Positions 4,533 through 38,494 of a DNA stretch of 64,000 nucleotides are shown here, one piece after another. Numbering within the stretch: position 1 is the stretch's first letter; each line of letters begins with the position of its first letter. The stretch lies in contig JAAOOA010000584.1 of assembly GCA_012861695.1 (NCBI GenBank), positions 62,001-126,000 of the forward strand, written 5' to 3'. Both the position numbers and the translations under genes were made by a program. This DNA comes from Trematomus loennbergii (Eukaryota; Chordata; Actinopteri; Perciformes; Nototheniidae). A model generated the notes under the pieces. The model searched no databases, was not told the origin of the DNA, and was given only the letters and a program-made list of their open reading frames with translations.

Positions 4533-7500
4533 ATGATCTTCATCCTCCTGCTGCTCCTCTTCCTCACCTCCTGTGTCTCTGGTTAGTTCACTACTGTTTT
4601 TTGCCACTAAGACAAACATATTAACTTTATATATATAATACATCCCTCCCCAAATTAAAGCTTTTTCGTACGGAAGATTATTAGGGCAAAGCACAATGGG
4701 CAAAACTGATTTTTATTTTCATGTCGAAAAAATAAGTTAAAATACAGAGAATAAAGTTGAACTTTCAGTTGATGCTGTAACACAGGGGGGTCAAACTCAA
4801 TGTCATCGCGGGCCACATTCGCATAAAGGTTGCACTCAAAGGGCCGGTTGTAACTATATAAATATATAATATATACATATAAAATAATGTATTATAAGAT
4901 AAGATAAGATAAGACAGTACTTTATTGATCTCAAATTGTGAAATTATATGACATTATTGCCTCTGAATTGGATTATTATCGGATGGGATAATAACTTAGT
5001 AATTAACTACGTCTGAAAGCAGAAGTCCAGGGCAAATAATTGCAAGTCTCTTCAGTGCGCATGCCACAAAACGAGATGCATTGTGGGACATGTAGTTTAT
5101 GGGCAACCTGCTTCTGTAAAGTAGCATGTAACCGTATAATAAACTTATTATATTGTTTGCAAGCTCTTGCGGGGCCACATGAAATGAAGTCGCGGGCCGG
5201 ATTTGGCCCCCGGCAGGGGCGGACTGGCCATCGGGACGTTCGGGACGAATCCCGATGGGCCGGTACTGAAGTGGGCCGGTCGGACGATGTGGGCCGCTCG
5301 GATAAGTCACTAGCACCCCCCCCCCGTTGATCATTTACCGAGGTGGGCCGGCGGTACCGAAGTGGGCCGGTCGAGAGTCCCGGGCTGATTTGTAGTCCCA
5401 GTCCGCCCCTGGCCCCCGGGCCTTGAGTTTGAGACCCCTGCTGTAACACAAGCAGTTGGATTTTTTCAGTTTAAAGAGTCCCTCTGTGTCTCCTCCACAG
5501 GAACATAGCTGCAGTTTAAAGAGTCCCTCTGTGTCTCCTCCACAGGAACATAGCTGCAGTTTAAAGAGTCCCTCTGTGTCTCCTCCACAGGAACATAGCT
5601 GCAGTTTAAAGAGTCCCTCTGGGTCTCCTCCACAGGAACATAGCTGCAGTTTAAAGAGTCCCTCTGTGTCTCCTCCACAGGAACATAGCTGCAGTTTAAA
5701 GAGTCCCTCTGTGTCTCCTCCACAGGAACATAGCTGCAGTTTAAAGAGTCCCTCTGTTGCGGCTTTCACACCGGCGCTTTTCACTTTCTAGCTCCTCGCG
5801 AGAGCTTTTCTGGTTCAGCTCCCGTTTCCCTTTTCAGCTCCCGCTCTGTTCACACCGCCCAGAGCTGCCGAGAGATTTTCTCCCACAACAACAACGGGCC
5901 GGGGACTACGTCGGGTCGACGATCGTGTTGCTTTTAATCATACGAAGCCAGATTAAATTAAATAACGACTTCTCCAACCTTATACTTTTCTCCAGAGTGC
6001 CGTGGTTCATTGTTTATTAATGTGTTTCAGCGGCATTTACCGACCGCTGCAGTGCTGGCTGCTCTTCAACGGGAGGTTATTCTCCCGTTAGCTCCGGGTT
6101 AGCTCACACGCCTCTAAAGTATTCACTGTCTGACTGTCACACAAGCAGCTGATACATATCCCCAGTTCCCCTTAAGTGAATGTGTGTCAGTCTGAATTGA
6201 CGCTGTTTGGCATCACAACGCTGTTATGAAAGTGTTAGCATAGCAACCGAAGCTAAACTGACTACTTGCTAAGCCGTTTTCTCCAGGCACATTTTACCGG
6301 CGTATTTTTCATTATGATTCTACTTGTGATAGTCGGACATGACAACCTGTACAGCCCATGTATTAATTCCATCCGATAGCTGCTATAATAACAAACAAAA
6401 CGTCTGCCTGCTCTCCACAATGATCAATAACAGCGAACGGATGGTCAAAGTAAGGTTTCCTGCACGCCTCGACGTAAGCGACGCCGCGTCATAGCTCCAA
6501 AGCTCTTGCCTCTGGACCGACAACTTTTTGGAGCTGGAAGTGAACCGCATTCCGGAGCTATGACGCGCCGCCGCTGCGGTGTGAACAGGAAAAACCGGCG
6601 CTTTTCAGGCTCTAGCTCCCAGCAGGAGCTGGAAAAGCGCCGGTGTGAAAGGGGCATGAGTCTCCTCCACAGGAACATAGCTGCAGTTTAAAGAGTCCCT
6701 CTGTGTCTCCTCCACAGGAACATAGCTGCAGTTTAAAGAGTCCCTCTGTGTCTCCTCCACAGGAACATAGCTGCAGTTTAAAGAGTCCCTCTGTGTCTCC
6801 TCCACAGAAACATAGCTGCAGTTTAAAGAGTGCCTCTGTGTCTCCTCCACAGGAACATAGCTGCAGTTTAAAGAGTCCCTCTGTGTCTCCTCCACAGTAA
6901 CATAGCTGCAGTTTAAAGAGTCCCTCTGTGTCTCCTCCACAGGAACATTTGTAGTGAATGTGACTCAGACTTCCTATCAGGCAGAGGAGAACCAGAACAT
7001 CACCCTGGAGTGGACCTTCAGCACCAGAACAGACACTAACTTCAGATCCATTTCCACCCACTGTTTCCTGTATACTAATGACCGACCCTCAGTTCTGTTT
7101 GAACTACGTGAAGGTGTTGAATTCCCAGAGTCTCAGGATCCAGAGTTTTCAGGACGAGTCCAGTGGGACAAAGACGTCCTCACAGAAGGACGCCTCACAC
7201 TTCATGTCTCCAGACTCAGGACCAGTGACTCTGGGTTTTATGTGTGTGACATACTCGTCACACCTGATGGGAGTAACTCTAGGAGATGCTGGCTCAACGT
7301 CACTGGTGAGTAACCCCAGTGCTGCATTTACTGTAAAACTTCACTTCTTTAATGTGCAGACTCTAGTAGCTCTAGTCTAATATAAGAAAGATGCAAAGTC
7401 AATAGAGAGGTGCAGTGACGCGTCCTAAAACCAGGAAGGAAGCTGCGCATGGGTACCTTCCAGTTCCCTCGACAAAAAACCAACGAGATTTCTCCAGAGG

Positions 7501-8277: not shown

Positions 8278-9513
8278 CAGTGGTTCTCAAACTTTTTCTG
8301 TCATTCCCCACTTTGAACAGGTGGGCCTTTTCAAGCCCCACCTGTTCCTCATCGCTCCAATAAAATGGTAGGCCAAGCTTAAAATTGTCAAATGTATTCT
8401 ATAGCAGGGGTCTCCAACCTTTTTTAGGATGAGAGCTACTTAAAAAAAATAAAACAAGTCGTGAGCTACTTTTACTCCTCTTTTTTTAGTTTTTTGCTGT
8501 GTATATATTTAGCACATTTTAACATTATGATATGCTTACCTTTAACCTTCGTTTGCTATTTGGGTCTGTGGGACCCCTTTTCAGTGTTTACTAAAAGAAC
8601 ATGTATGCAATTAAATTATTTTAACGTGTTTATTTGGGGGTGGACCTCACCTCCCCTAGGGGGGTCCGGGGGCATGCACCCCCGGGAAGATGTTTTTTTA
8701 AATGTTGTAGTGAAATGCATCAATCTGGTGCACTTTGAGCACAGCATGAATTGATGGAAACAGCTCTCAACACTCATATGAAATGGAGCTGTATACTTTT
8801 TAATGATCCAAACATCTTTAGAATATGATCACAACCAATAACAAATAATTTAAACTGGTTTATTCTTATCTTATGTTACCTATAGTTAGCAATATTTCTT
8901 TTTATTTATGCATATTTTACTAATCACTCCCCTTTTAAACTGTTCTTTTTTTTTTACTGTCCTACAGTCCACATTGGAATGATTTCTTACTTTATTTTTT
9001 ACAACTAGGCTATATTAAATAGATAAACACATTGCTTTTCTTCCCGACTGCAACGCTGTTGTGTGTGTGTGTGAGAGATTTTTACACATGTCTGTAAATG
9101 ATTTTGGTTTCAGATGTGTGTGTGTGAGCAGGCTCGGATTGGCCATCGGGAGATTCGGGACTTTTCCCGGTGGCCCGCTGCCGTTGGTGGGCTGCTGCTG
9201 TTGGCATAGGCGTGGACTTTCACAGCGCCGCTGCGCTGGTACCGCATCCGCCGCCGCAAACACCCGCCGTTGCGAGGCTCCGGCGCTGTGAAAGTCCACC
9301 GCCGTTGCGAGTCTCCGGCTGTAACAGTCCACTACCGCCCGCAAGGACCCAGGTTCGATTCCGGCCTGAGGTCCAAAAAATGTATTTAAAAAAATAAAAA
9401 GTTTAAAAAAAAAAAAAAAATCTCCCGTTCATTTATTCGCGATTTATTCGCGACCCACTATCACATCTCTGCGCCCCACCAGTGGGGCGCGCCCCACACT
9501 TTGAGAAACACTG
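8278..9513. mobile_element. hAT element with 8-bp TSD, containing other elements
   Basis: The ends are CAGTGGTTCTCAAACTTTTT and the complement of CAGTGTTTCTCAAAGTGTGG. The 8-bp duplication CTGTAATC lies at 8270-8277 and 9514-9521. Inside are the start of a different hAT (CAGGGGTCTCCAACC at about 8406) and a piece shared with the 46960-48544 element (about 8622-9000). There is also a CATCGGGAG-type fragment (9129-9190), a 19-bp-arm hairpin (9212-9300) and a tRNA-like SINE piece with an A-tail. AATAAA at 8359-8364 could serve as a poly(A) signal for the upstream Ig gene. Confidence 0.87.
9330..9421 (+). mobile_element. tRNA-like SINE fragment
   Basis: A B-box-like segment, GGTTCGATTCCGGCC, is followed by an A-rich tail ending in a 17-base A run. 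The A-box half is not evident, so this is a SINE piece rather than a tRNA gene. Confidence 0.45.
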
Positions 9514-10128: not shown

Positions 10129-10779
10129 TGTGTGTGTGTGTGCACCACATAATCCACACGTGCACGCCCGCCTCGTGCACGCTCCTCACCGGATACAGAC
10201 TGATCGCTGCCTCCTTCAGCCGTGCAGTGTTTCTGGTTACAATTAATGTTTAAATGTCTTTTAAATGTAAAAGGATGGTGGATATTTGCAGGGATTTAAT
10301 AAAAAAAAAGGCTATCAGATATTTTTTATTTATGTAAACTGTCCCTGTTAAATAATACATCAATATTTAATATATTTTTTATAATATTATTTTAATTTTA
10401 TATTAATTAGGAAATAAACTATTAATAACAAAAAAATAATATATATTTTCTAAAAAGTAAATAAATTGAATAAATTATATAAAAACTAACTTCCACATTT
10501 GTTAGTCTTTGTACTTCATTTTACTGAAGAACGTATAAAAAGTGTCCTCTTTCCAACAATGTGTCTGTGGAATCAAAGGGACGTACACATGCAGAGCTGT
10601 GAGCCTCGCAGTAACAGGAGTACCAACCAACGACCCCATTGACTCCTATATTCATTAATAGCAGAGATTTCAGAAGTGAACTCAACTTTGATCTTCTGAT
10701 TGATACTCCATTCAAACCTTTACATGTTTCACTTCTTTCATACATTAGGAGTTACAGCTTTAAGTGAGATATGAACAGA
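9522..10779. other. AT-rich non-coding spacer
   Basis: No coding sequence. It holds a (GT)n tract (10053-10141) and poly(A)-signal-like words (ATTAAA near 9725, AATAAA near 10298). These could belong to the 3' region of the Ig gene if its transcript reads through the hAT. Positions 10521-10779 look unique. Confidence 0.5.
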
Positions 10780-12085
10780 TATGGAGCTATTTCAGGGTCA
10801 TAAGTTTTGATCATTCGAAAAAATACAATTTATTTGAAAGTCCAAGTTTTCATCCTGAACATTGAAAAATACAATGTTGTATTAAAAAAAAAGAAAAGTA
10901 TTTGAAATAATTTTTCAGGTTGAATATTATTTTGATTCAGTTCAGCAATTTTTTGGAATAAAATATTTATTTATTATATTATATTTATTTTTTAGTTTCA
11001 AATCTTTTTTTTTCAGGTTTCAATTATGTTTTTGCCTTCAAATCGTTTTTCGCTTTCAGATCTTTTTTTTTCGCTTTCAGACTTTTGGCCCTGATATTGC
11101 TTCGGGGGCGGGGCTTACCAAAGAGTAGTTTGTCACCCTGAGTGACAGCCCTCCCTCTGTCATGATGCCTTCATGGATGTTAGGTAGCGCAAGAAATATA
11201 ACTACACACTTTCTATACACAATACTCCCGTGATTGGTGGTAAACAAAACTGATACCAGCGTCAAAGTTCCGTTAAACGAGCTGTTGAGCATCGTAGTTG
11301 GCAAAAATTGCGATATAAGAGCAATAAACTGTGCTAGAATGTGAAATTACGTATCCGCAATGAAGCGTTGTCCTTCCCCACTTCCACGTAGCTCCGTGAA
11401 CGCAGCATAGTATTGGCTGGGCTTTTGCGATGGCGTCAGGTCCACCTGCTGGCTCCATGGCTGGCACCAGCGCACAGGTAAGAAATATTAACTTTTTCCA
11501 TTCATGGTCTTAGAAGTTATCTAAGACATGATAATAATATTATAGCGACATACATCAAAGGAAGGCAGGCCTTTTGAGGTGGGGAATGAATGTGGCAACG
11601 CGGGAAACTAACCATGGCATTGAGGCTACTCGTGTATGCTATTAGCTATAGTCAGTGCAAGTGAATTTCCCTTATGTTGATAGAGTCCAGCTCACGTGTT
11701 TCTCAATCTGTCTTTGCCAGAGTGGCGACCGTAATTCATCTGTGGCTGCAGCAGCACACACTTTAATAACCATGCTCACACAGCACCTAAGCCAGGGACA
11801 GCTGGAAGGAAGGAAGGAGGACCAGACACTGCCTGGTCCTTCTGTAGAGCAGGAGATGGCCAGGTTTTAGATTTTAATAAATATATATTTGTGTTTATCT
11901 ACAGGTAAACTGCAAGTTGATATGTCCATTTATGATTATGTGCTAAACAACATTACTTTTTTGTTTAAATAATGCAGATCTTTCCCTGGATTCTTTGTGA
12001 AAAAATCGAATCGAAATTGCCTTGGGAAGAGAAAGCTTCCAGCTCTCAAGACCTTTGCAACTGAAGCGAAGAAAAACTGGAGACC
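10780..12085 (+). repeat. Left inverted arm of two-gene transposon
   Basis: From outside in: an AT-rich subterminal zone of repeated TTTCAGnTT-like words, a GC-box, an inverted TGTCAC/GTGACA motif near 11131, a CCAAT-type sequence (ATTGG near 11411), exon 1, exon 2 and the start of exon 3. It matches 18535-20287 in reverse. Confidence 0.85.
11104..11114 (+). promoter_or_regulatory. GC-box in transposon arm promoter
   Basis: GGGGGCGGGGC, an Sp1-type site, lies about 320 bp upstream of the exon-1 start codon. The right arm carries the mirror copy (CCCCGCCCCCC near 19883), so both genes have the same upstream element. The CCAAT-like ATTGG lies about 20 bp before the ATG in both arms. Function is inferred from motif and position. 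Confidence 0.4.
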
Positions 12086-15000
12086 CTTTACATTTTATGT
12101 TTACCTGTTAAACTTGAATGCAGACAGTACCCCAACCGCATCGGAAGAATTTGCGCTTGCCCAGGCGGGACTGGGCAAAAGACATATATCGATGCCCCTG
12201 GACATGAGCCATGAAGAGGTATTGTATAAAGAAAACCATATTTATATAACCTGTGTTCATATTTGAAACTTGGGACTTATTTGTAGAGTTGGTTTGGTTT
12301 CAAGAACACCCTATTTTATCGTTTCCTTAGTTCTTCAGTCTCCTGAAAAAGGAATATCCAAAGTTGCAGGCGCTGGATGGAGGATGGCTCCTCTACAAAT
12401 CAACAGGTGCAAAAAATGTGTCAAATAACATTCATTGTAATACATTTTCATTTAAATATTTAGCTAAAAGCAACTGAAATGATTCAAACAATGTAAATTA
12501 CAGGAGGTCAGGGTAAACGAAAACTTATAATGATTCCGCCTGACTCGGACGGATACACCGGCACACTCCTCCGCAGTGTCACAGGGGCAGGGAAGAACAC
12601 CCTGTATATTGTCCCTCTGCAGCATGAATTCGACTTAACACCTTTGCCCGCGGATGCTGTAGAGTTCCAGAATATGCCAAAAGCCCAATGCCAAACATGC
12701 AAGTTACATTTTCCTCTGCAAATTTTGGCTCTGCATGTCCAGGAGTGTATGGAGGAGTGTCTATCATCGGAAGAAGACATTGAGGTAAATGTGGGCATGA
12801 AATATATGTAATGTTGCATTTTAATAGGACAACTTGCTTTAAATATTTTTTTATTCAGTGAGTTATAACATGTGTTGGTAATATTTTGTGTTTGTTAGAC
12901 AACAAGTGAGGTGGAAATTGTTTCGGTCGTGCACCCTGTGCAAAACCATACAGAGAAATCTCTTGAAGAGGTAAAGGACTTAATTGTATTGTATTGCATT
13001 GCACTGTAAAATTGATATAAACTTGATACAGCTGCTAATATTTAAACTTTTACCTCCATCAGAAGGTGCCATGTCCCATCTGCTTCGAGAGCTTCACACC
13101 ACAGTTTTTAGAAATACATGCAAGCATGTGTGGAGAAAGGTATTTTACATGTTTATATTAACGATATACATCTCCTTTGTACTTTGTTAGAGATCAACAT
13201 GTCCGTCTGGATGAGAAAACTGACATGGGCCACAACGAAAGGCAATGGAGAGGCAATTCGAAAGGTAAATACTGGGTTCTTCATTCTGCTTGGATCTTCA
13301 TTCTAAAAAAGCTCTTTATTCAATATCAGTAGTTTACGCCTGTTAATTATGAGTTTTGTTTGGCAGTGTTGATGACGTATTGGACACAATCTCTGGAAGA
13401 GTAGACGTAGAGAAACGTTTCAATATACAAATCTCACGAACAAACATTCTCGAAAGAGGCCTTCTACAGTGGCAGCGTCAAAAAGGCAGTTCACCCACAG
13501 CTACCCTGAACGTGACCTTCTTTGGGGAGGCAGGAGTCGACACAGGAGCCCTCCGAAAAGAATTTCTCACAGGTTAACAAAAATAACAATTTTGCATTCT
13601 TACATTTGACTCTTAATTAAAATAGTCTAGATTTATGGATAATGTCTGTGAAACTTTGGTTGAAGGGCTGATTAACAAAGACTCATGACATTCTTTTTCT
13701 TTTAGTCTTTGTTATACTACTTATCCTTTTTTGTATTTAAACGGGGTTAGACATTAATAAAATACTTGTAAAATAGTATCCTGATTATTAAAGTAAATGG
13801 TCTTTGTACTTGTGTGTAGAAGTGGTGGCAGGAATTGAGGGTCGTTTCTTTGAAGGACCTCAACAGCAGCGGATCCCACGGTACTCTCTGAATGACTTAG
13901 ACAGTGACCTCTACAGGTTTGTTTACTTTTAAGCATGTACAGTAAGGACCAACTGTTCATTTTTGATAAATGTTATATAACATAAAAAATGTATTCATGC
14001 TCAATCTGTGTTAATAGGACAGTGGGAGAGATTTTGGCTGTTAGTTTGGCACAAGGTGGCCCCGCCCCTGCCTTCTTCAGCCTTACAGTTACCTCTGTAG
14101 TGGACGTATAAACCAGAAGGTTCTCAACAGTGATTCAGTGGCAGATGTCCAGCTGAGAGAGTTAATTGACCAGGTATGAGTTCTATATTATGTAAATGCT
14201 GGGTTAATAAGAAATAAGCATTTATTTCCAATTATAGTCATAGGTTTATATGAATATGGTAAAGAGATGTACTTCTCAGTTTTCAGGTTGAGTCGGCGAC
14301 TGAGCATTCAATTATAGGCCTATCTGATGAAATATTGAATTGTGGATATACTGGAAATGTCCATTCCAAACAAGGACACCATTGTTCGGTATGCTTGACA
14401 CTTATTTATTTTTGTATATTAAAAGATGTTACACGAGTACCTTTTATTAAGGATTGCATTTACTTTGTAATTTTGTAGTTCCATCATACTCCACGCAGTG
14501 CTGCGGCTGCAGCCTATGTTGGAACAACTAAGGGATGCAGCTGTATGGACTCCTTTCACTGATGAGTCAGTACCCAGATATCTGCAGCCCTTGTTTGTTT
14601 CTGGGGAAGATGTAAAAGTGAGCAGAACAAGAGACCATTCTTTACAATTTGATATTAAAGTTAAGGAGTAAAGAGTACATCATTTATATCTGGATTTGTT
14701 CTCATCATAGGTCAATGCAGAGTTTGTCAGACATCCATTCTTCCTCAACTGAGTGACAAAGGGACTACCAGGCATCAGGTTGAGCTGGAGATGATGAACT
14801 TCATTCAGGACTTCCTATATATGAAGGTATAAAGTTTTTGATTTACTTCTAATGAAGATTTAAATGTAAGTTGTTTTAAATTACAAAAGTTGGGTTTTTA
14901 AATTTGAAGGCATTGGGCTTGGAAAAACATTAAAATGTCCTTGAATTTAATGTTTAAGATGTTGTAGGAATCCTGAATTACACAAACTTGATTACCTTTT

Positions 15001-15411
15001 TTGGATCAGACGTTCTGTGGTTAAAATACCTCAGTACAATTCACTTGCACTAAAGGAAAACTACACTTTAAACTGTCATAACGGTTTTTGTTTATTTTCC
15101 TCATAGCTGAAGATCATGGGCATGTAGATAAAGATGGCCTACATCCCATCACACCTGCAACGTTTCTGCAGTGGATCACAGGCCAGGGTCACGTCCCACT
15201 TCTTCCCTCAGAGAAGAAGGACTTTGCAGTTGTGATCCAATTCAATCATGACTGCAGTGCAGACTTTGGGCATCACAGTGTCTGTTACCCTGTTGTGACA
15301 GCATGTGCCAAGACAATCACCTTACCTGTGAGACATATGAGGCCCTATGAAAAATTCAAAAACATCCTGACTGAAGCGTTTCAATTAGGCCAAGAATTTA
15401 GCAATGTGTAA
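11430..15411 (+). pseudogene. Zinc-finger HECT E3 ubiquitin ligase (G2E3-like), decayed
   Basis: Up to 15 exons with GT/AG borders, for example 11430-11477, 11721-11863, 11978-12218, 12331-12406, 12504-12784, 12899-12970, 13063-13139, 13367-13572, 13820-13916, 14479-14617 and 15107-15411. The N-terminal part is basic (KKSNRNCLGKRK). Two C2HC fingers follow: CQTC..H..C in exon 5, and CPIC..H..C in exon 7. The HECT domain starts with FFGEAGVDTGALRKEF and continues through LAVSLAQGGPAPAFF. It ends in VVTACAKTITLPVR, where the cysteine sits at the catalytic position. Phase breaks occur in exon 11 (near 14090, stop at 14109), exon 12 (near 14360), exon 14 (near 14733) and at the exon 8/9 and 14/15 joins, so this copy is probably dead. 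Known G2E3 ligases move ubiquitin to substrates through this cysteine. Why a transposon carries one is open. Confidence 0.8.
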
Positions 15412-15527
15412 TAAGGTAACCATTAACGACCTCTGTTCCAAGTTAACCTTACTGTTTAAGTGTTAAAGGTTTAGCATTGACTGCTTCCAGTCAAGTAATC
15501 TTAAAAAAAAATGTAATGGCAGCAATA

Positions 15528-15708
15528 GAGTGGTGCAGTGATGACGTGTTTTTGTAGGCTGACCCGGAAGTAAGCTGCAAGGGTTCCCTCAACAAAAAAG
15601 CAGTGGGATTTCTCCATACTGTAGGATATCCCATTGCTTTTTGTCGAGGGAACCCTTGCAGCTTACTTCCGGGTCGAACTACACAAATACGTCATCACTG
15701 CACCACTC
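15528..15708. mobile_element. 181-bp foldback MITE between the convergent genes
   Basis: Inverted ends GAGTGGTGCAGTGATGACGT, with arms matching almost to the centre (CCCGGAAGTAAGCTGCAAGG and its complement). It belongs to the same family as 7403-7772 but has a shorter core. It sits in the 430-bp gap between the two stop codons. Confidence 0.9.
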
Positions 15709-15840
15709 GGTTAAACATTTCTTAAAGAAAAACAAACAAATTGATATAATGTTGTAACATGTTGCTACCCAGAACTGTGATATGGAAAATGTTAAGGGTG
15801 TTGATGTCTAAATGGTTAAACCCTTGAAACATGTTTGCAT

Positions 15841-18500
15841 TTAGGATGCATGATTTAGTACATGGTTCAATACAGCTAAATAAATGTCTCGGCCGTAGGA
15901 CCCAGATGGTCTTGTAACATCAATATTGGCCAAAAGTCCTGCCATATCCTGCTCACTGAGGGGACTTTCAACAGGTGGAAGAATCACTCCAGAACTGGTC
16001 TCATCTGGCTCACTGGCAGTGTTGAAATCAAGATCTGCATCCTCCATTTCCTTGATAAAAATTAAATATCAGTCATGGATTTTAGGGGACCAAGAATAAC
16101 TTTAAGCACCACAAACACTAGAGAATGTAAAGAATAAAAACGAAACACTTTTTTGCCTTTTCAACGGTACACCTATCAAAAGAGGTGATTTTGAGGTCTT
16201 ACAAAATGCATTTCAAGTGCAGTCTCATGCTTTGCATTTTACATTAGTAAGCAAGTTTTATGCAATTTTTCATTTATTTGATGCTAGTGATTGTAAATTC
16301 CATTGAAACATGACAAATATAATTTTTACCTAGCCCAAAGGTTCAATACTAATGTAATGAACAGCGAAGTGCCAATGCCAATTTCTTTCATAATATAAGT
16401 TTAATGGAGTTCCTTTAATTTTGTTAAGCTGTTTTAAGCACAATACTTTGGTCTAATATATTTTAGTTGAAATAGTTTGAGAACACTGGCCAAAATTATG
16501 TTGATACAATTTTGCTTGAAATAAACATGTAATGAGTACCTCTGCAAGGTCTGGAACATCAATAGGATTATGGAGGAGTCCCATTGTCCACAGTTGGTGT
16601 GGGGACAAATTTCGCTCTGTCCTTAGAGGGTGATTATCCCAACCCATCCTGAAGACATTGAGATCCCTCTGAAGACGCGGAAGAAATACATGCTGGGCAC
16701 AGAACAGGTGGATGCTATCGAAGGATCTAGAACACCCTCATCCTCGAGGCTGTGAAGAACCTCGTAGTGCACGTTTGAAACAGCCATCCAAACATCTCGC
16801 CACAAACGTTCGATTCTGTTAAAATAAAAATCATCAAATTACACTCAAATTGGACAAAGCACAGTATATTCACAAATGATGGCTTTGTGTTTGTCATTGT
16901 TTGACGTTACTTCAAAAAATGTACCTTTGATTGTGCACACTTTTCCCTGACATGAAGCTTCCCCTTCCACAGCCCCTTATAGTGAACATGCATCGCGCTA
17001 TGCCAACATTTTCCACTCCTTGGTCGGCTCTTACTCTTAAAAAGATGAATCGTTATTTGTGAAAACAAAATTACCTTCCGTGAGAAGCCATCAATCCCTC
17101 CAAAAATAACAAGACCATATCTTAGAAAAACAACACAAAATCACTTTTAGTGTGTTATTTCTTATGCAAACAACTGTGACAGGGCATTTTAAAACATAAC
17201 TTTTTAATTTGTACTCTATTATCCTTTATTGTACATAGCATGTAAACATCAAATGTGTGGCGTACCTGATGAGTTTATGATTTGTGTCGATGTGTACCAA
17301 GTGCAGAGGACCCTGAACAGAATATGTCCTTCTTGCAACACACCCCATCCTTGCCATTCTTGTGAGTACACCCACAGAATCAACACGATGCATTGATGAA
17401 GACACTCTCTTCCATTGCACACGGTGACCCATGGCCTTCAGGATTCCTTTCATCATTCGATATCCTACATGTGGTGTCCTGGCCTTAACTGACCGAACCA
17501 AATTGTCTAGTTCATCATCAGTTAGGGTACTGTAGGACTGTTTTATGGAAAGGCCATTTTCATGCATGCGCCTTTTGACTGTCTTCTCAGATACACCCAG
17601 AAGTTTTGCTATGGCCGACACTGGTAGGGACAAGTCTTCTATTGAGCCTTGTAGTTGCTGAGGACAGACAACATATTTGGTCGTCCCATTTCTCCTTGCA
17701 TTACTGGCACCTGATGAGGGGTCTGATTAGAGATGTCTTCAATATTGACAAGCCTTGACAGCTCAGTCAAAGCATTGATGACATCCTGTGGCATATCAAC
17801 CTGGCCTGATAGCGACCTAAAAAGAGCCATCTCCTGGTCCACTGCAAACTGCAAATAGTCAACATCTAACGGCAGTCTTTGCGTGATCTGGGAAATTCTA
17901 TTCAGTAGTCTCTGAAGAAAGTCCCTTTTCAGTTGCTCCTAGAAAAGACAAACATCAATTTACCATATTGAACTGGATTAGTTCATGTTCAAATAAAACA
18001 GCATTAAATATCGTTAAGGACATGTGCAAAGAAAATGACTGCAACAATTATGCTTTGTAAACAAACTCTATAAAATAGGTGATCAAATCAAAACATAATG
18101 TAAGTTATTACCAATCATTTTTAAATAATCATTTAAAGAGAGGTGCTGTGTGAGCATGGTTATTAAAGTGTGTGCTGCTGCAGCCACAGATGAATTACGG
18201 TCGCCACTCTGGCAAAGACAGATTGAGAAACACGTGAGCTGGACTCTATCAACATAAGGGAAATTCACTTGCACTGACAATAGCTAATAGCATACACGAG
18301 TAGCCTCAATGCCATGGTTAGTTTCCCGCGTTGCCACATTCATTCCCCACCTCAAAAGGCCTGCCTTCCTTTTATGTATGTCGCTATAATATTATTATCA
18401 TGTCTTAGATAACTTCTAAGACCATGAATGGAAAAAAGTTAATATTTCTTACCTGTGCGCTGGTGCCAGCCATGGAGCCAGCAGGTGGACCTGACGCCAT
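15841..18500 (-). pseudogene. DDE integrase-type transposase, two frameshifts
   Basis: Minus-strand exons: 18453-18500 (shared leader MASGPPAGSMAGTSAQ), 18112-18208, 17266-17938, 17075-17120, 16925-17035, 16540-16815 and 15841-16050. The large exon has a helix-turn-helix (GVSEKTVKRRMHENGLS) preceded by a GRP motif. The catalytic triad of an rve-fold enzyme is split over exons: D in LVHIDTNHK, D in [11 protein letters not shown] in NQRIERLWRD. The C-terminal exon is acidic and ends at 15841. Single-base shifts near 17680 (after GRP) and near 16718 break the frame, and the phase of the second leader exon does not fit the large exon, so this copy is inactive. The presumed role is cutting and joining transposon ends in the nucleus. 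No retroviral gag/pol companions are present, so I read it as a DNA-transposon enzyme. Confidence 0.78.
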
Positions 18501-18530
18501 CGCAAAAGCCCAGCCAATACTATGCTGCGT
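18135..18530 (-). repeat. Inner copy of promoter/leader duplication
   Basis: This 395-bp segment (promoter side, exon 1 and part of exon 2) recurs at 19208-19597 in the same orientation. The right arm thus carries two copies of the leader region while the left arm has one. The inner copy abuts exon-3 sequence at 18532 (GCGTTTTCTTCG), a rearrangement joint. The outer copy lacks 3 bp in exon 1 (one codon). Confidence 0.85.
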
Positions 18531-18534
18531 TTTC

Positions 18535-20287
18535 TTCGCTTCAGTTGCAAAGGTCTTGAGAGCTGGAAGCTTTCTCTTCCCAAGGCAATTTCGATTCGAT
18601 TTTTTCACAAAGAATCCAGGGAAAGATCTGCATTATTTAAACAAAAAAGTAATGTTGTTTAGCACATAATCATAAATGGACATATCAACTTGCAGTTTAC
18701 CTGTAGATAAACACAAATATAATTTATTAAAATCTAAAACCTGGCCATCTCCTGCTCTACAGAAGGACCAGGCATTGGGTGTTTCTCAATCGCGAGTACG
18801 CTTGCTTGGTAGCACATGTCTGCCGAGCATCTTGCTTCAGAAGTGAGTCAAGAATACTTCCTGGCATTCGGAAAACGAAGTGTGGAACACGCTAGCAAAT
18901 GTGCAGGTGTGCGTCATATGAGAGGCCCCGCGTTACATCTTCCGCCACAGATTTGGGGAAATTGGTCCGTGCGCAAAGCATTGTGGGGATTTAAGACCGC
19001 GAAGTCTACTCATGTGCAGACTCGATATTTCTCCAAACGGGGTACGCCGGGCTCGGTAGATTTCCAAGTATGCTGGAGATTGGAACAGTACTTCGGCGGC
19101 ACTCAATGACGTAGTATGCTTGAAATAGTGGCTCTGAAGCAGCTTTACTCGCGATTGAGAAACACCCAGTGTCTGGTCCTCCTTCCTTCCTTCCAGCTGT
19201 CCCTGGCTTAGATGCTGTGTGAGCATGGTTATTAAAGTGTGTGCTGCTGCAGCCACAGATGAATTACGGTCGCCACTCTGGCAAAGACAGATTGAGAAAC
19301 ACGTGAGCTGGACTCTATCAACATAAGGGAAATTCACTTGCACTGACAATAGCTAATAGCATACACGAGTAGCCTCAATGCCATGGTTAGTTTCCCGCGT
19401 TGCCACATTCATTCCCCACCTCAAAAGGCCTGCCTTCCTTTTATGTATGTCGCTATAATATTATTATCATGTCTTAGATAACTTCTAAGACCATGAATGG
19501 AAAAAAGTTAATATTTCTTACCTGTGCGCTGGTGCCCATGGAGCCAGCAGGTGGACCTGACGCCATCGCAAAAGCCCAGCCAATACTATGCTGCGTTCAC
19601 GGAGCTACGTGGAAGTGGGGAAGGACAACACTTCATTGCGGATACGTAATTTCACATTCTAGCACAGTTTATTGCTCTTATACTGCAATTTTTGCCAACT
19701 ACGATGCTCAACAGCTCGCTTAACGGAACTTTGACGCTGGTATCAGTTTTGTTTACCACCAATCACGGGAGTATTGTGTATAGAAAGTGTGTAGTTATAT
19801 TTCTTGCGCTACCTAACATCCATGAAGGCATCATGACAGAGGGAGGGCTGTCACTCAGGGTGACAAACTACTCTTTGGTAAGCCCCGCCCCCCGAAGCAA
19901 TATCAGGGCCAAAAGTCTGAAAGCGAAAAAAAAAGATCTGAAAGTGAAAAAACAATTTGAAGGCGAAAAAATAATTGAAACCTGAAAAAAAAAGATTTGA
20001 AACTGAAAAAATAATTGTTTTGAATCTGAAAACGTAAATCTGAAACTGAAAAAAAGAAGTATTCAAATATCGAAATATGTATAAAAGTGAAATATGAAAA
20101 TAAATATTTTATTCCAAAAAATTGCTGAACTGAATCAAAATAATATTCAACCTGAAAAATTATTTCAAATACTTTTCTTTTTTTGAATACAACATTGTAT
20201 TTTTCAAAGTTCAGGATCAAAACTTGGACTTTCAAATAAATTGTATTTTTCGAATGATCAAAACTTATGACCCTGAAATAGCTCCAT
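18535..20287 (-). repeat. Right inverted arm of two-gene transposon
   Basis: Reverse complement of the left arm. Outside in: AT-rich subterminal zone (19905-20287), GC-box, exon-1 copy (19522-19566), exon-2 sequence interrupted by a MITE (18776-19168) and exon-3 sequence. It then runs into the duplicated leader at 18135-18530. Confidence 0.85.
18776..19168. mobile_element. 393-bp MITE inside transposon right arm
   Basis: Inverted ends TGGGTGTTTCTCAATCGCGA and complement. The undisturbed left arm shows the empty site GGACCAGGCAGTGTCTGGTC, so the insertion is nearly exact, with at most a 2-bp duplication (CA). No coding capacity. The insertion post-dates the arm duplication. Confidence 0.88.
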
Positions 20288-20560
20288 AGATTAACGCATG
20301 TGTATTTTTTGTCCTCGGCCGCCGTAGTTTCAGAGCGCATCGAGTTTAAAATACCATCTACAAGCTGATGCTGACAGCCCGCTCCTGCCGCCCGCTTGTG
20401 GCAGACCACACTTCCACGCTCACCGGCAGGCCCGGACTGGCCATCGGGAGGACCGGGAGGGTGTGTGTGGCGCGACTCGCGCGAGCGAGGCACACGGACC
20501 GGGAGGGTGTGTGTGGCGCGACTCGCGCGAGCGGAAACCTTTGCAATTCAAGAAAAATTT
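20288..20560 (-). mobile_element. hAT fragment (same family as 30643-31594)
   Basis: It matches 31310-31510 in reverse, including GACAGCCCGCTCCTGCCGCC and the GCGCGACTCGCGCGAGCG palindrome, here as two copies of a ~45-bp unit. It ends abruptly at the border of the two-gene transposon, and no partner piece is visible on the other side. Confidence 0.7.
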
Positions 20561-36676: not shown

Positions 36677-38417
36677 CTACTTGAGGTTACAGAACTCAGC
36701 AGTGTCATCAAAAGGTGAAAAATTAAACCGAAGTCCAGCATAGAGCGGCTGAGTGAAAGTGGTCTGGACTCTGTGGAGGAGAGTTAAGGTTTCAGAGACG
36801 CTGTAGAAGGACAGAATACCTGCATCGTGATCCAGATACACTCCAACTCTGGAGGAATCAGGACCTGAGACGGGAGTTTTTACTTTGTTGAACAGAAATG
36901 TATACTTGTTATTGTCAGACTGTAACGCCCAAGATTTATCATTGGATCCAAACAAACATCTATCCGGATGTCCTGCTCTGCTGATGTTCTTGTATGCAAC
37001 TGCTACACAAACTGCCACCCTCTCCACTCCACTTCCCAGTAACAACGACCAGTCAGACTTTCTTTACTCAGGACCTGATGATAATCAGTGAATCTGTCTG
37101 GGTGACTTGGATATGACGGACATAGTAACTGGCATGTTGCTTTTCTGCCCTCCTCAGTTAATATCAGCCATGTGTTTGCAGTGTTTGGATCCAGAGTGAT
37201 GTCACATGAATATTTTAAGAATCTAGCTCTGGTTTTGGGCTCTGGTGGTGACAGTAAAACTTCCACTTCACTCACCATCAGTGAGATGTTTGTCCACGTC
37301 TTCGCCAGGACGTCCTGTAGTTTATCTCTGACTGCTGACACAGCCGCTATCACGTCCTCAAAGTAGCGCAGAGGACGGATGTTGATGCTGGATGAGTGTG
37401 CAGGTTCACTGAGTGCTGACAGTGAAGCGTAGTTGTGCAGAAAGTGGGTGTGATCCTCTGTGTGAGAGAGCTTCTGCAGCTCAGCGTCTCTCCTCTTCAG
37501 CTCCCTGATCTCCTGCTCCAGCTTCTTCTGAAGCACTTTGACTCGACTCACTTCAGTTTCCTGCTTGGATCTGACCTGCTGCTTCACATCAGAGCTTCTT
37601 TTCTCTGCGAGACGGATCAGCTCAGTGAACATCTTCTCACTGTCATCCACTGCTTTATCAGCAGAGCCAGTGACGGCCTCCGCCTCCTGCTGAAGCAGCT
37701 TCACCTCCTTCTCTCTGTCCTGGATTCCCTGCTGGATGTTTTGTCGACTCCCCTCCAGCTCTCTCTGCCTCTCAGTCCTTTCTGCTGCAGCTGACACTGT
37801 GTCGTGGCCTTTATGTTCCTCCTCAGAGCAGAGATAACAGATAGACTGTTGATCAGTGCGACAGAACATCTTCTTCACCTCCTCATGACGAGAGCACATG
37901 TTCTCCTGGAACTTCTTGGAGGGCTCCATCAGCTTGTGTTTCTTAAAGGCAGGAGATTCATAATGAGGCTGATGTGTTTATTACAGTATGAGGCCACACA
38001 CTGCAGACAGGACTCCAAAGCTTTCCGTTTTCTCCCAGTACAGACATCACATCCCACATCTTCAGCTCCAGCATAGCAGTGATCAGCAGGAGCAGCAGGA
38101 GCAGCTTGGAGTCCAGTCTTCTTCAGCTGCTCCACTAAATCTGCTATCATGGTATTTTTCATCAGGACAGGCCTTGGTGTGAAGCTCTTTCTACACACAG
38201 GGCAGCTGTAGATTCGATTCTCATCCTCTCCATCCCAGTGGCTTTTAATACAGTTATTGCAGTAGTTGTGTCCACAGGGAATAGACACCGGTTCCTTCAG
38301 TAGATCCAGACAGATTGAACAGCTGACTATCTTTTGGTCAAGCTGATTTTCTTGCTGCGCCCATTTCACCTCTCCGTGTAAGCAAATGTCAGTTTCACTT
38401 TCCCTGAATAGAAACAA
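36677..38417 (-). pseudogene. finTRIM (ftr-type) E3 ubiquitin ligase, three 1-base breaks
   Basis: Minus strand, intron-less in this copy. [31 protein letters not shown]-box-like cysteine pair (CDVC..CLQC) follows, then a B-box 2 (MCSRHEEVKKMFC..CYLC), a long coiled coil rich in E/K/Q (about 37750-37450), PRY (ITLDPNTANTW) and SPRY (CYWEVEW..VAVAYKNIS). This is the finTRIM order. Breaks: the usual start ATGGCGCAGCA reads ATGGGCGCAGCA (extra G near 38361); one base is lost near 37963 between the B-boxes; one change near 37015 lies inside SPRY. In-frame starts further upstream exist but are not the family's start. Typical finTRIMs are ~550 residues, and the pieces sum to about that. finTRIMs are interferon-inducible antiviral candidates in fish. 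It is either a recent pseudogene or an assembly with three indels. Confidence 0.85.
38391..38404 (-). promoter_or_regulatory. ISRE upstream of finTRIM
   Basis: On the minus strand GGGAAAGTGAAACT, a full match to the interferon-stimulated response element core GAAANNGAAACT. It lies about 30 bp upstream of the ancestral finTRIM start. IRF/ISGF3 binding is inferred from the motif. Confidence 0.65.
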
Positions 38418-38494
38418 GCTCTGCTCCGCCTGCTCTTGTGTATGTTACGGGTCCTAAAAGCTTGGGTACCACAGCAACAATAAAGAAATCTGTA

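Follow-up and report, generated by a model that had tools for sequence, protein, structure and literature searches.

The DNA between positions 10780 and 20288 of the window, the 64,000-nucleotide stretch of Trematomus loennbergii analyzed here, holds an IS3EU-type DNA transposon with two genes, recently active as a family and rearranged in this copy. The transposon encodes a D-D-E transposase and a HECT ubiquitin ligase-like protein in convergent orientation, and the two genes share their first coding exon, a copy of which lies in each arm of the element. The existence of the element with both genes, taken alone and irrespective of what the ligase does, is practically certain, and a role of the ligase as an accessory, ubiquitin-based factor of the transposon is rather probable. 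The following features were assigned in the window:

10780..20288, no strand: whole element, damaged copy, 9509 bp
10780..11860, plus strand: left terminal inverted repeat, starting TATGGAGC, including HECT exon 1 and the beginning of exon 2
10988..11086, plus strand: subterminal array of the left arm, ~20-nt units, about 5 copies, 72% matches
11430..11477, plus strand: HECT exon 1, encoding MASGPPAGSMAGTSAQ, within the left arm
11721..15411, plus strand: HECT exons 2-15, frame broken in the window
12504..12784, plus strand: HECT exon 5, first C2HC finger
13063..13139, plus strand: HECT exon 7, second C2HC finger
15107..15411, plus strand: HECT exon 15, predicted catalytic Cys and C-lobe
15528..15708: intergenic hairpin between the convergent genes, 71-nt arms, 92% complementary
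15841..16050, minus strand: transposase exon 7
16540..16815, minus strand: transposase exon 6, catalytic E
16925..17035, minus strand: transposase exon 5, second catalytic D
17048..17051: breakpoint where ~724 bp, including transposase exon 4 (of 7), have been lost
17075..17120, minus strand: transposase exon 3
17266..17938, minus strand: transposase exon 2, HTH region and first catalytic D
18141..18531, minus strand: inner portion of the original right arm, which breaks off at ~18531
18453..18500, minus strand: transposase exon 1, encoding the 16 residues also encoded by HECT exon 1
18530..20288, minus strand: second left-type end, inverted, acting as right end, containing a ~389-bp insert
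19522..19566, minus strand: second, slightly shorter copy of transposase exon 1
19911..20011, minus strand: matching subterminal array of the right arm, about 5 copies, 73-77% matches

The transposon unit has the termini TATGG..CCATA in the window and in the other whole copies, and the window element starts with TATGGAGC and ends with GCTCCATA. A preliminary description of this DNA had reported inverted arms enclosing the genes, and the arms 10780-12075 and 18141-20288 indeed pair in inverted orientation with 80-100% complementarity, the outermost 43 nt (10780-10822 and 20246-20288) being 100% complementary; arms of that length are not chance. Of the bounds originally given, 10780..20287, the left end was confirmed and the right end had to be moved one base further, to 20288. 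The arms had been described as kilobase-scale, which is correct for the whole copies, where they measure ~1.08 kb; the right arm in the window is longer and irregular. The other copies are bounded by the same arms as the window copy. The subterminal arrays are candidate binding sites for the transposase.

The irregular right arm of the window is explained by a truncated right arm joined to a second, inverted left-type end: the original right arm stops at ~18531, after which the left-type end follows, and in whole copies the right arm is continuous from the transposase to the end. A left-type end at the right side also fits the absence of a target duplication in the window, where the flanks differ (AACAGA on the left, GATTAA on the right). 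The window transposase carries indels in exons 2 and 6 in addition to the loss of exon 4, and the HECT frame is disrupted by indels in exons 8 and 11-14. Copies of undamaged size measure ~9.23-9.31 kb, compared with 9509 bp for the window copy, which was rejected as a model of the element since it is rearranged.

Several further observations concern the window itself. The ~389-bp insert, at about 18778-19166, has borders that repeat inverted and is missing from all seven whole full-type copies. The hairpin at 15528-15708 also occurs in the other copies examined and may represent a nested miniature element or a structure at the 3' ends. The AACAGA adjoining the element end on the left (10774-10779) is likewise found at the right flank of the copy C1881; the two flanks may be halves of one insertion after rearrangement or swap, and no longer flank similarity between the two loci was found. 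About 17 kb from the element, TRIM-type gene pieces at 37003-38444 (minus strand), where two overlapping frames encode RING, B-box, coiled coil and PRY, mark a candidate for a different kind of E3 ligase. A minisatellite at 5003-7088 (minus strand) has units that read CSCGGDTEGLFKLQL in an open frame. No RNA family was found in the window at the gathering threshold.

The genome (1.208 Gb, 3566 contigs) was searched with a 2-kb HECT stretch, yielding 27 matches, from which nine further near-full and ten partial matches were taken with their flanks. Seven of the nine near-full matches are whole with both ends, six of these with perfect 6-bp duplications and C1881 without; the remaining two, C207 and C937, contain HECT DNA and a transposase cut down to its last exon and were not counted as whole copies. 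Seven of the ten partial matches share one internal deletion from within HECT exon 3 to exon 9 and represent five loci by their flanks, four of them with perfect duplications. Among the other partial matches, C75 and C18 are fragments and C628, sharing the right flank of C16, was merged with the C16 locus. The C60 pair and C2691 were merged into one locus by flanks as well: this insertion is seen three times with the same flanks, as L028, L032 (C60) and L033 (C2691), and the C60 pair lies in opposite orientation ~60 kb apart, representing either an assembly duplicate or an inverted duplication. Transposase DNA of 98-100% identity was detected at 14 places besides the window, which reduce to 12 distinct loci once three records whose flanks coincide are merged. 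The HECT C-terminal exon is present at 14 of these 14 places, and the element unit was found at 12 distinct loci besides the window with DNA of both genes at each, as the proposal of a two-gene transposon had predicted of further copies. The HECT gene is thus not a single-copy gene in the T. loennbergii genome, in agreement with its assignment to the transposon.

Perfect 6-bp target duplications flank the unit at 10 of 13 distinct loci, the window counted among the 13, with a chance expectation of 1/4096 per locus. They read CATGCA, CAATAC, GGCCTG, CGTAAC, CCTATC and GGTCTG for full-type copies and ATCTCC, CCCTTT, GGTTTT and AACCTC for the HECT-deleted type; duplications are absent from the window, C1881 and the C60/C2691 locus. 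The 13 units differ by 0-0.65% in substitutions, and C55 and C12a show 4 base differences and 21 gap openings over 9322 columns. Such near-identity argues for recent movement, and part of the indels between copies may be assembly errors. In the HECT-deleted subfamily, the transposase is broken at all five loci as assembled, by a stop at four and by a 1-base deletion at the fifth. As this subfamily spread to at least four loci with duplications despite its broken transposase, it was likely mobilized in trans. The ligase is therefore dispensable in cis, and the subfamily is uninformative on a need for the ligase in trans because its transposase is broken too.

The assignment to IS3EU was made by comparing ends, duplication length and transposase type with published descriptions. 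The passages on these elements in two papers describe IS3EU elements with TA..TA ends, terminal repeats >30 bp and 6-bp duplications, fungal members with TAYGG..CCRTA ends and, for IS3EU/GingerRoot, an integrase-type D-D-E transposase without the HHCC zinc domain (PMC10045372; PMC12730594). The fish element matches in its TA..TA ends, the TAYGG..CCRTA pattern, the 6-bp duplication and a D-D-E transposase without HHCC, and the comparison with IS3EU suggested earlier was thereby borne out for ends and duplication length. Duplication length alone cannot exclude a Polinton, as Polintons are also described with 6-bp target duplications (PMC10045372). A Maverick/Polinton or Ginger element was rejected, with no polymerase or capsid genes and just two genes in a 9.3-kb unit with 6-bp duplications, whereas Ginger elements make duplications of 4-5 bp.

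The organization of the genes is best seen in the copy C55 (unit of 9306 bp), the one copy in which both genes read whole. HECT exon 1 (719-766) and transposase exon 1 (8538-8585) are located at mirror positions within the ~1.08-kb arms, and each encodes MASGPPAGSMAGTSAQ. Both proteins begin with the same 16 residues because the same first coding exon lies in each arm. As the arms hold the end, the subterminal repeats and the first exon, it is inferred that each also carries a promoter, which would switch on both genes together. The window shows the convergence already noted in the preliminary description, with the HECT exons on the plus strand (11430-15411) and the transposase exons on the minus strand (15841-18500).

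The HECT gene of C55 has 15 exons encoding 716 aa, with all 14 introns GT-AG, and its frame is intact in three of eight full-type copies (C55, C12a and C63). The HECT domain recognized earlier was recovered by Pfam in the whole-frame C55 protein (PF00632), barely above threshold at 24.2 bits with a cut-off of 23.9; no further Pfam family, PHD finger included, was found at E<=0.5. The C2HC fingers also proved real in sequence, with the pattern C-x2-C-x11-H-x3-C present twice (exons 5 and 7). Small zinc fingers of the C2HC kind are known to bind ubiquitin or DNA. At E<=1, no PDB sequence match was obtained for either the HECT protein or the transposase. The AlphaFold model of a 73%-identical HECT relative from Perca (pLDDT 77) gave 97 structure matches at E<=0.001; HECT ligases occupy all 50 of the 50 best rows, with Smurf2 as best match (E 7.4e-14). 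Among the best 120 of 147 relatives, the catalytic Cys is conserved in 88 of the 93 that have a residue at this position (27 gaps), and the finger cysteines and histidines are kept in at least 96 of 102-108, one misaligned finger column being left out of the counts. By sequence and model, the protein is predicted to adopt the two-lobed HECT fold with a conserved cysteine in the C-terminal region (predicted Cys682), and it looks like a complete ubiquitin ligase. In G2E3, PHD fingers precede the HECT domain. The transposon protein shares the HECT domain with G2E3, whose name is the source of the label given to its fish relatives, and differs in showing no PHD finger by Pfam and having two C2HC fingers instead; "G2E3-type", as it was first called, is consequently a label alone.

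The C55 transposase is encoded by seven exons (485 aa, all six introns GT-AG) and contains an HTH region and the D-D-E core; its frame is intact in two of eight full-type copies, C55 and C16. The D-D-E core was correctly described as split, and all three residues were located, over exons 2, 5 and 6. Pfam assigns PF24764 (E 5e-72) together with weak HTH matches, and the zinc-binding (HHCC) integrase domain is absent among the 20 Pfam families listed for the transposase. In the best 120 of 1861 relatives, the three residues are kept in 115 of 117, 112 of 115 and 116 of 119 proteins. The AlphaFold model of the relative from D. mawsoni (pLDDT 81) gave 104 matches at E<=0.001 to D-D-E recombinases, with a chain of a CRISPR-associated transpososome, TnsB and retroviral integrases in the best rows.

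The gene pair is not restricted to T. loennbergii. The HECT relatives examined (best 120 of 147) belong by name nearly all to ray-finned fishes; the top named matches are Antarctic notothenioids, with Trematomus bernacchii 100% identical over 57% of the query, followed by Perca (73%), Astyanax (70%) and zebrafish (45%). Comparing these 120 proteins with the best 120 of 1861 transposase relatives, 13 HECT/transposase pairs with at least 6 identical first residues were found. Eleven of these share at least 8 residues, nine within the same species and two from close relatives, and the other two share just 6 residues, across orders. The nine same-species pairs have identical N-termini of 8-61 aa and come from seven species: Brachyhypopomus gauderio, Danio rerio, Carassius auratus, Paramisgurnus dabryanus, Acanthochromis polyacanthus, Triplophysa rosa and Nothobranchius furzeri. 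In zebrafish, zgc:112970 and LOC100136843 (zgc:174680 by the name of its relatives) are identical in their first 24 residues. Among the 120 transposases compared, a same-species protein with the same N-terminus was found for just nine of the 120 HECT proteins, many models being partial. Six pairs, read by eye among the best-listed proteins, have gene numbers 1 or 2 apart: one each in D. mawsoni, Sarotherodon galilaeus, T. rosa and Misgurnus anguillicaudatus and two in B. gauderio.

The distances among HECT proteins and among transposases are correlated (Mantel r 0.89, P 0.0001) over the 13 pairs for which adjacency or a common first exon supports the pairing. The coefficient is 0.91 without the two notothenioid pairs and 0.76 when seven weaker same-contig pairs are added (20 pairs). 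A first run had given 0.92 (12 pairs) and 0.87 (18 pairs); the Nothobranchius and Melanotaenia pairs were absent from it and included in the later run, and the second HECT partner of Brachyhypopomus (P0038) was omitted from both. Host relatedness can add to these correlations. Trees of 18 pairs concur on three groups: Danio, Paramisgurnus, Carassius A and Brachyhypopomus 1; the T. loennbergii element, D. mawsoni, Perca and Sarotherodon; and Triplophysa, Brachyhypopomus 2, Brienomyrus, Carassius B and Acanthochromis. Carassius and Brachyhypopomus have two families each, in which both proteins track the family rather than the host. The two trees conflict for Misgurnus, Epinephelus, Leuciscus and Paramormyrops, and Nothobranchius and Melanotaenia likewise have different nearest neighbours for the two proteins. 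The same-start pairs and the correlated distances indicate that the ligase has accompanied the transposase over the long term and is neither a host gene nor a one-off capture. The earlier suggestion that fish "G2E3-like" predictions are transposon genes probably applies to many of them: it is supported where an exon or adjacent numbering is shared with a transposase and does not extend to every protein so labelled.

Some likenesses between distant hosts were observed in addition. The Astyanax and T. loennbergii proteins are 80% (transposase, P0122) and 70% (HECT, P0004) alike, and those of Acanthochromis (P0182 and P0031) and Carassius 81% and 74%; these likenesses may reflect horizontal transfer between fishes. 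In Corythoichthys intestinalis, the HECT-family model P0061 (847 aa) also contains PF27079, otherwise listed for transposases, and is either a fused model or a fused gene.

A second, diverged family is present in the T. loennbergii genome. At four places, three on C116 and one on C1020, transposase blocks of 48-58% identity converge with a HECT last exon (58%) 242 bp away; this pairing accounts for four among five such transposase places and seven such HECT places. The remaining HECT exons were not found at L043, the single place of this family that was retrieved. On C620 and C523, a transposase and a HECT exon point towards each other across ~5.5 kb. For at least 11 further diverged transposase places, no HECT match was seen up to 12 kb away in scans that scored 91 of 461 transposase and 62 of 443 HECT candidates, and some transposase families may have no ligase. 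Between the diverged family and C55, third codon positions differ by 63% (HECT) and 69% (transposase) and second positions by 21% and 26%, which shows constraint on both genes; codon-position counts are given in place of dN/dS as dS is saturated.

The genes of maize MuDR are convergent, and its terminal repeats carry promoters and are far shorter than the ~1.08-kb fish arms. MuDR consists of a transposase gene and a second gene (mudrA/mudrB), each beside a terminal repeat (PMC8224964), and differs from the fish element in transposase superfamily and second protein. A parallel is found in fungal IS3EU elements carrying a TET/JBP dioxygenase and an alpha-kinase, with all TET-bearing members described as carrying the alpha-kinase gene opposite in orientation to the transposase (PMC12730594). 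They resemble the fish element in having an enzyme gene opposite to the transposase and a second class of enzyme with a possible role against silencing; they differ in hosts and in enzymes unrelated to HECT, and the passages of that paper on these elements mention no shared first exon (PMC12730594). Enzyme genes that face an IS3EU transposase are therefore not a new kind of arrangement. Compared with IS3EU/GingerRoot, the fish element adds a HECT ligase as second gene and ~1.08-kb arms with a coding exon for both genes, and it is the HECT cargo and the shared exon inside the arms that are new as far as our searches of the open-licence literature show. An unclassified repeat among the Cottus candidate repeats has a blastx match to G2E3, and the passage on it describes no structure, transposase or ends (PMC5638112).

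It is quite possible that Repbase already includes the family as a two-frame IS3EU element, with no paper on the ligase. Repbase is stated to contain 45 IS3EU families, 17 of them autonomous, as of May 2022 (PMC10045372), and teleost genome papers count IS3EU elements; against this, the open-licence literature yielded no paper that joins IS3EU and HECT.

Mechanistically, the transposase would bind the subterminal arm repeats, cut at the TA ends and join with a 6-bp stagger. The HECT protein would act in trans as an accessory factor ubiquitinating a host or element protein, and the addition of ubiquitin would favour transposition or escape from silencing. As its substrate, a host chromatin or repair factor is tentatively ranked first, ahead of a control of transposase level, which we regard as unlikely. 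The action on transposase, host repressors or the cell cycle put forward in the preliminary description is speculative. Rather doubtful is the wider proposal of a lineage that has had its own ligase since before the major teleost groups split, in which the repeats would be promoter-plus-first-exon cassettes and the ligase would disarm host defence.

The HECT gene might instead be inert cargo, an old captured gene without contribution to transposition, as the spread of copies devoid of HECT exons 3 (part) to 9 and the several diverged transposase places without a HECT match (in scans scoring 91 of 461 transposase and 62 of 443 HECT candidates) would allow. This is improbable: inert cargo should decay, yet the cysteine, the finger ligands and the codon structure are kept down to about 40-58% identity, the descent of ligase and transposase is largely common and the same arm would drive both genes. 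A similarly low probability is given to an accessory factor that does not transfer ubiquitin, i.e., a degenerate ligase fold binding DNA, ubiquitin or the transposase. The weak Pfam score (24.2 compared with 23.9 bits), the two small zinc fingers of a kind that binds ubiquitin or DNA and the loss of the catalytic Cys in 5 of 93 relatives point in this direction; the Cys is however present in the other 88 (best 120 of 147), and both lobes are modelled as a HECT fold. A host HECT gene lying beside a transposase by chance in a segmental duplication, as some annotations naming a host ubiquitin ligase might imply, is virtually impossible and refuted for the T. loennbergii genome by ten loci where the arm ends directly adjoin 6-bp duplications that differ from locus to locus; the first exons are moreover shared with the transposase and lie inside the arms.

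If the preferred reading of a two-gene transposon with an accessory ligase is true, the transposase of a DNA transposon has a permanent partner in an E3 ligase encoded by the same element, in an economical design in which one repeat serves as element end, probable promoter and first exon for two genes. It would become possible to test directly, in fish cells, whether transposition or host silencing is controlled through ubiquitin. Among fish genes, many of those annotated as "G2/M phase-specific E3 ubiquitin-protein ligase" or as zgc:112970-like would then be transposon genes, a reclassification that affects gene-family counts.
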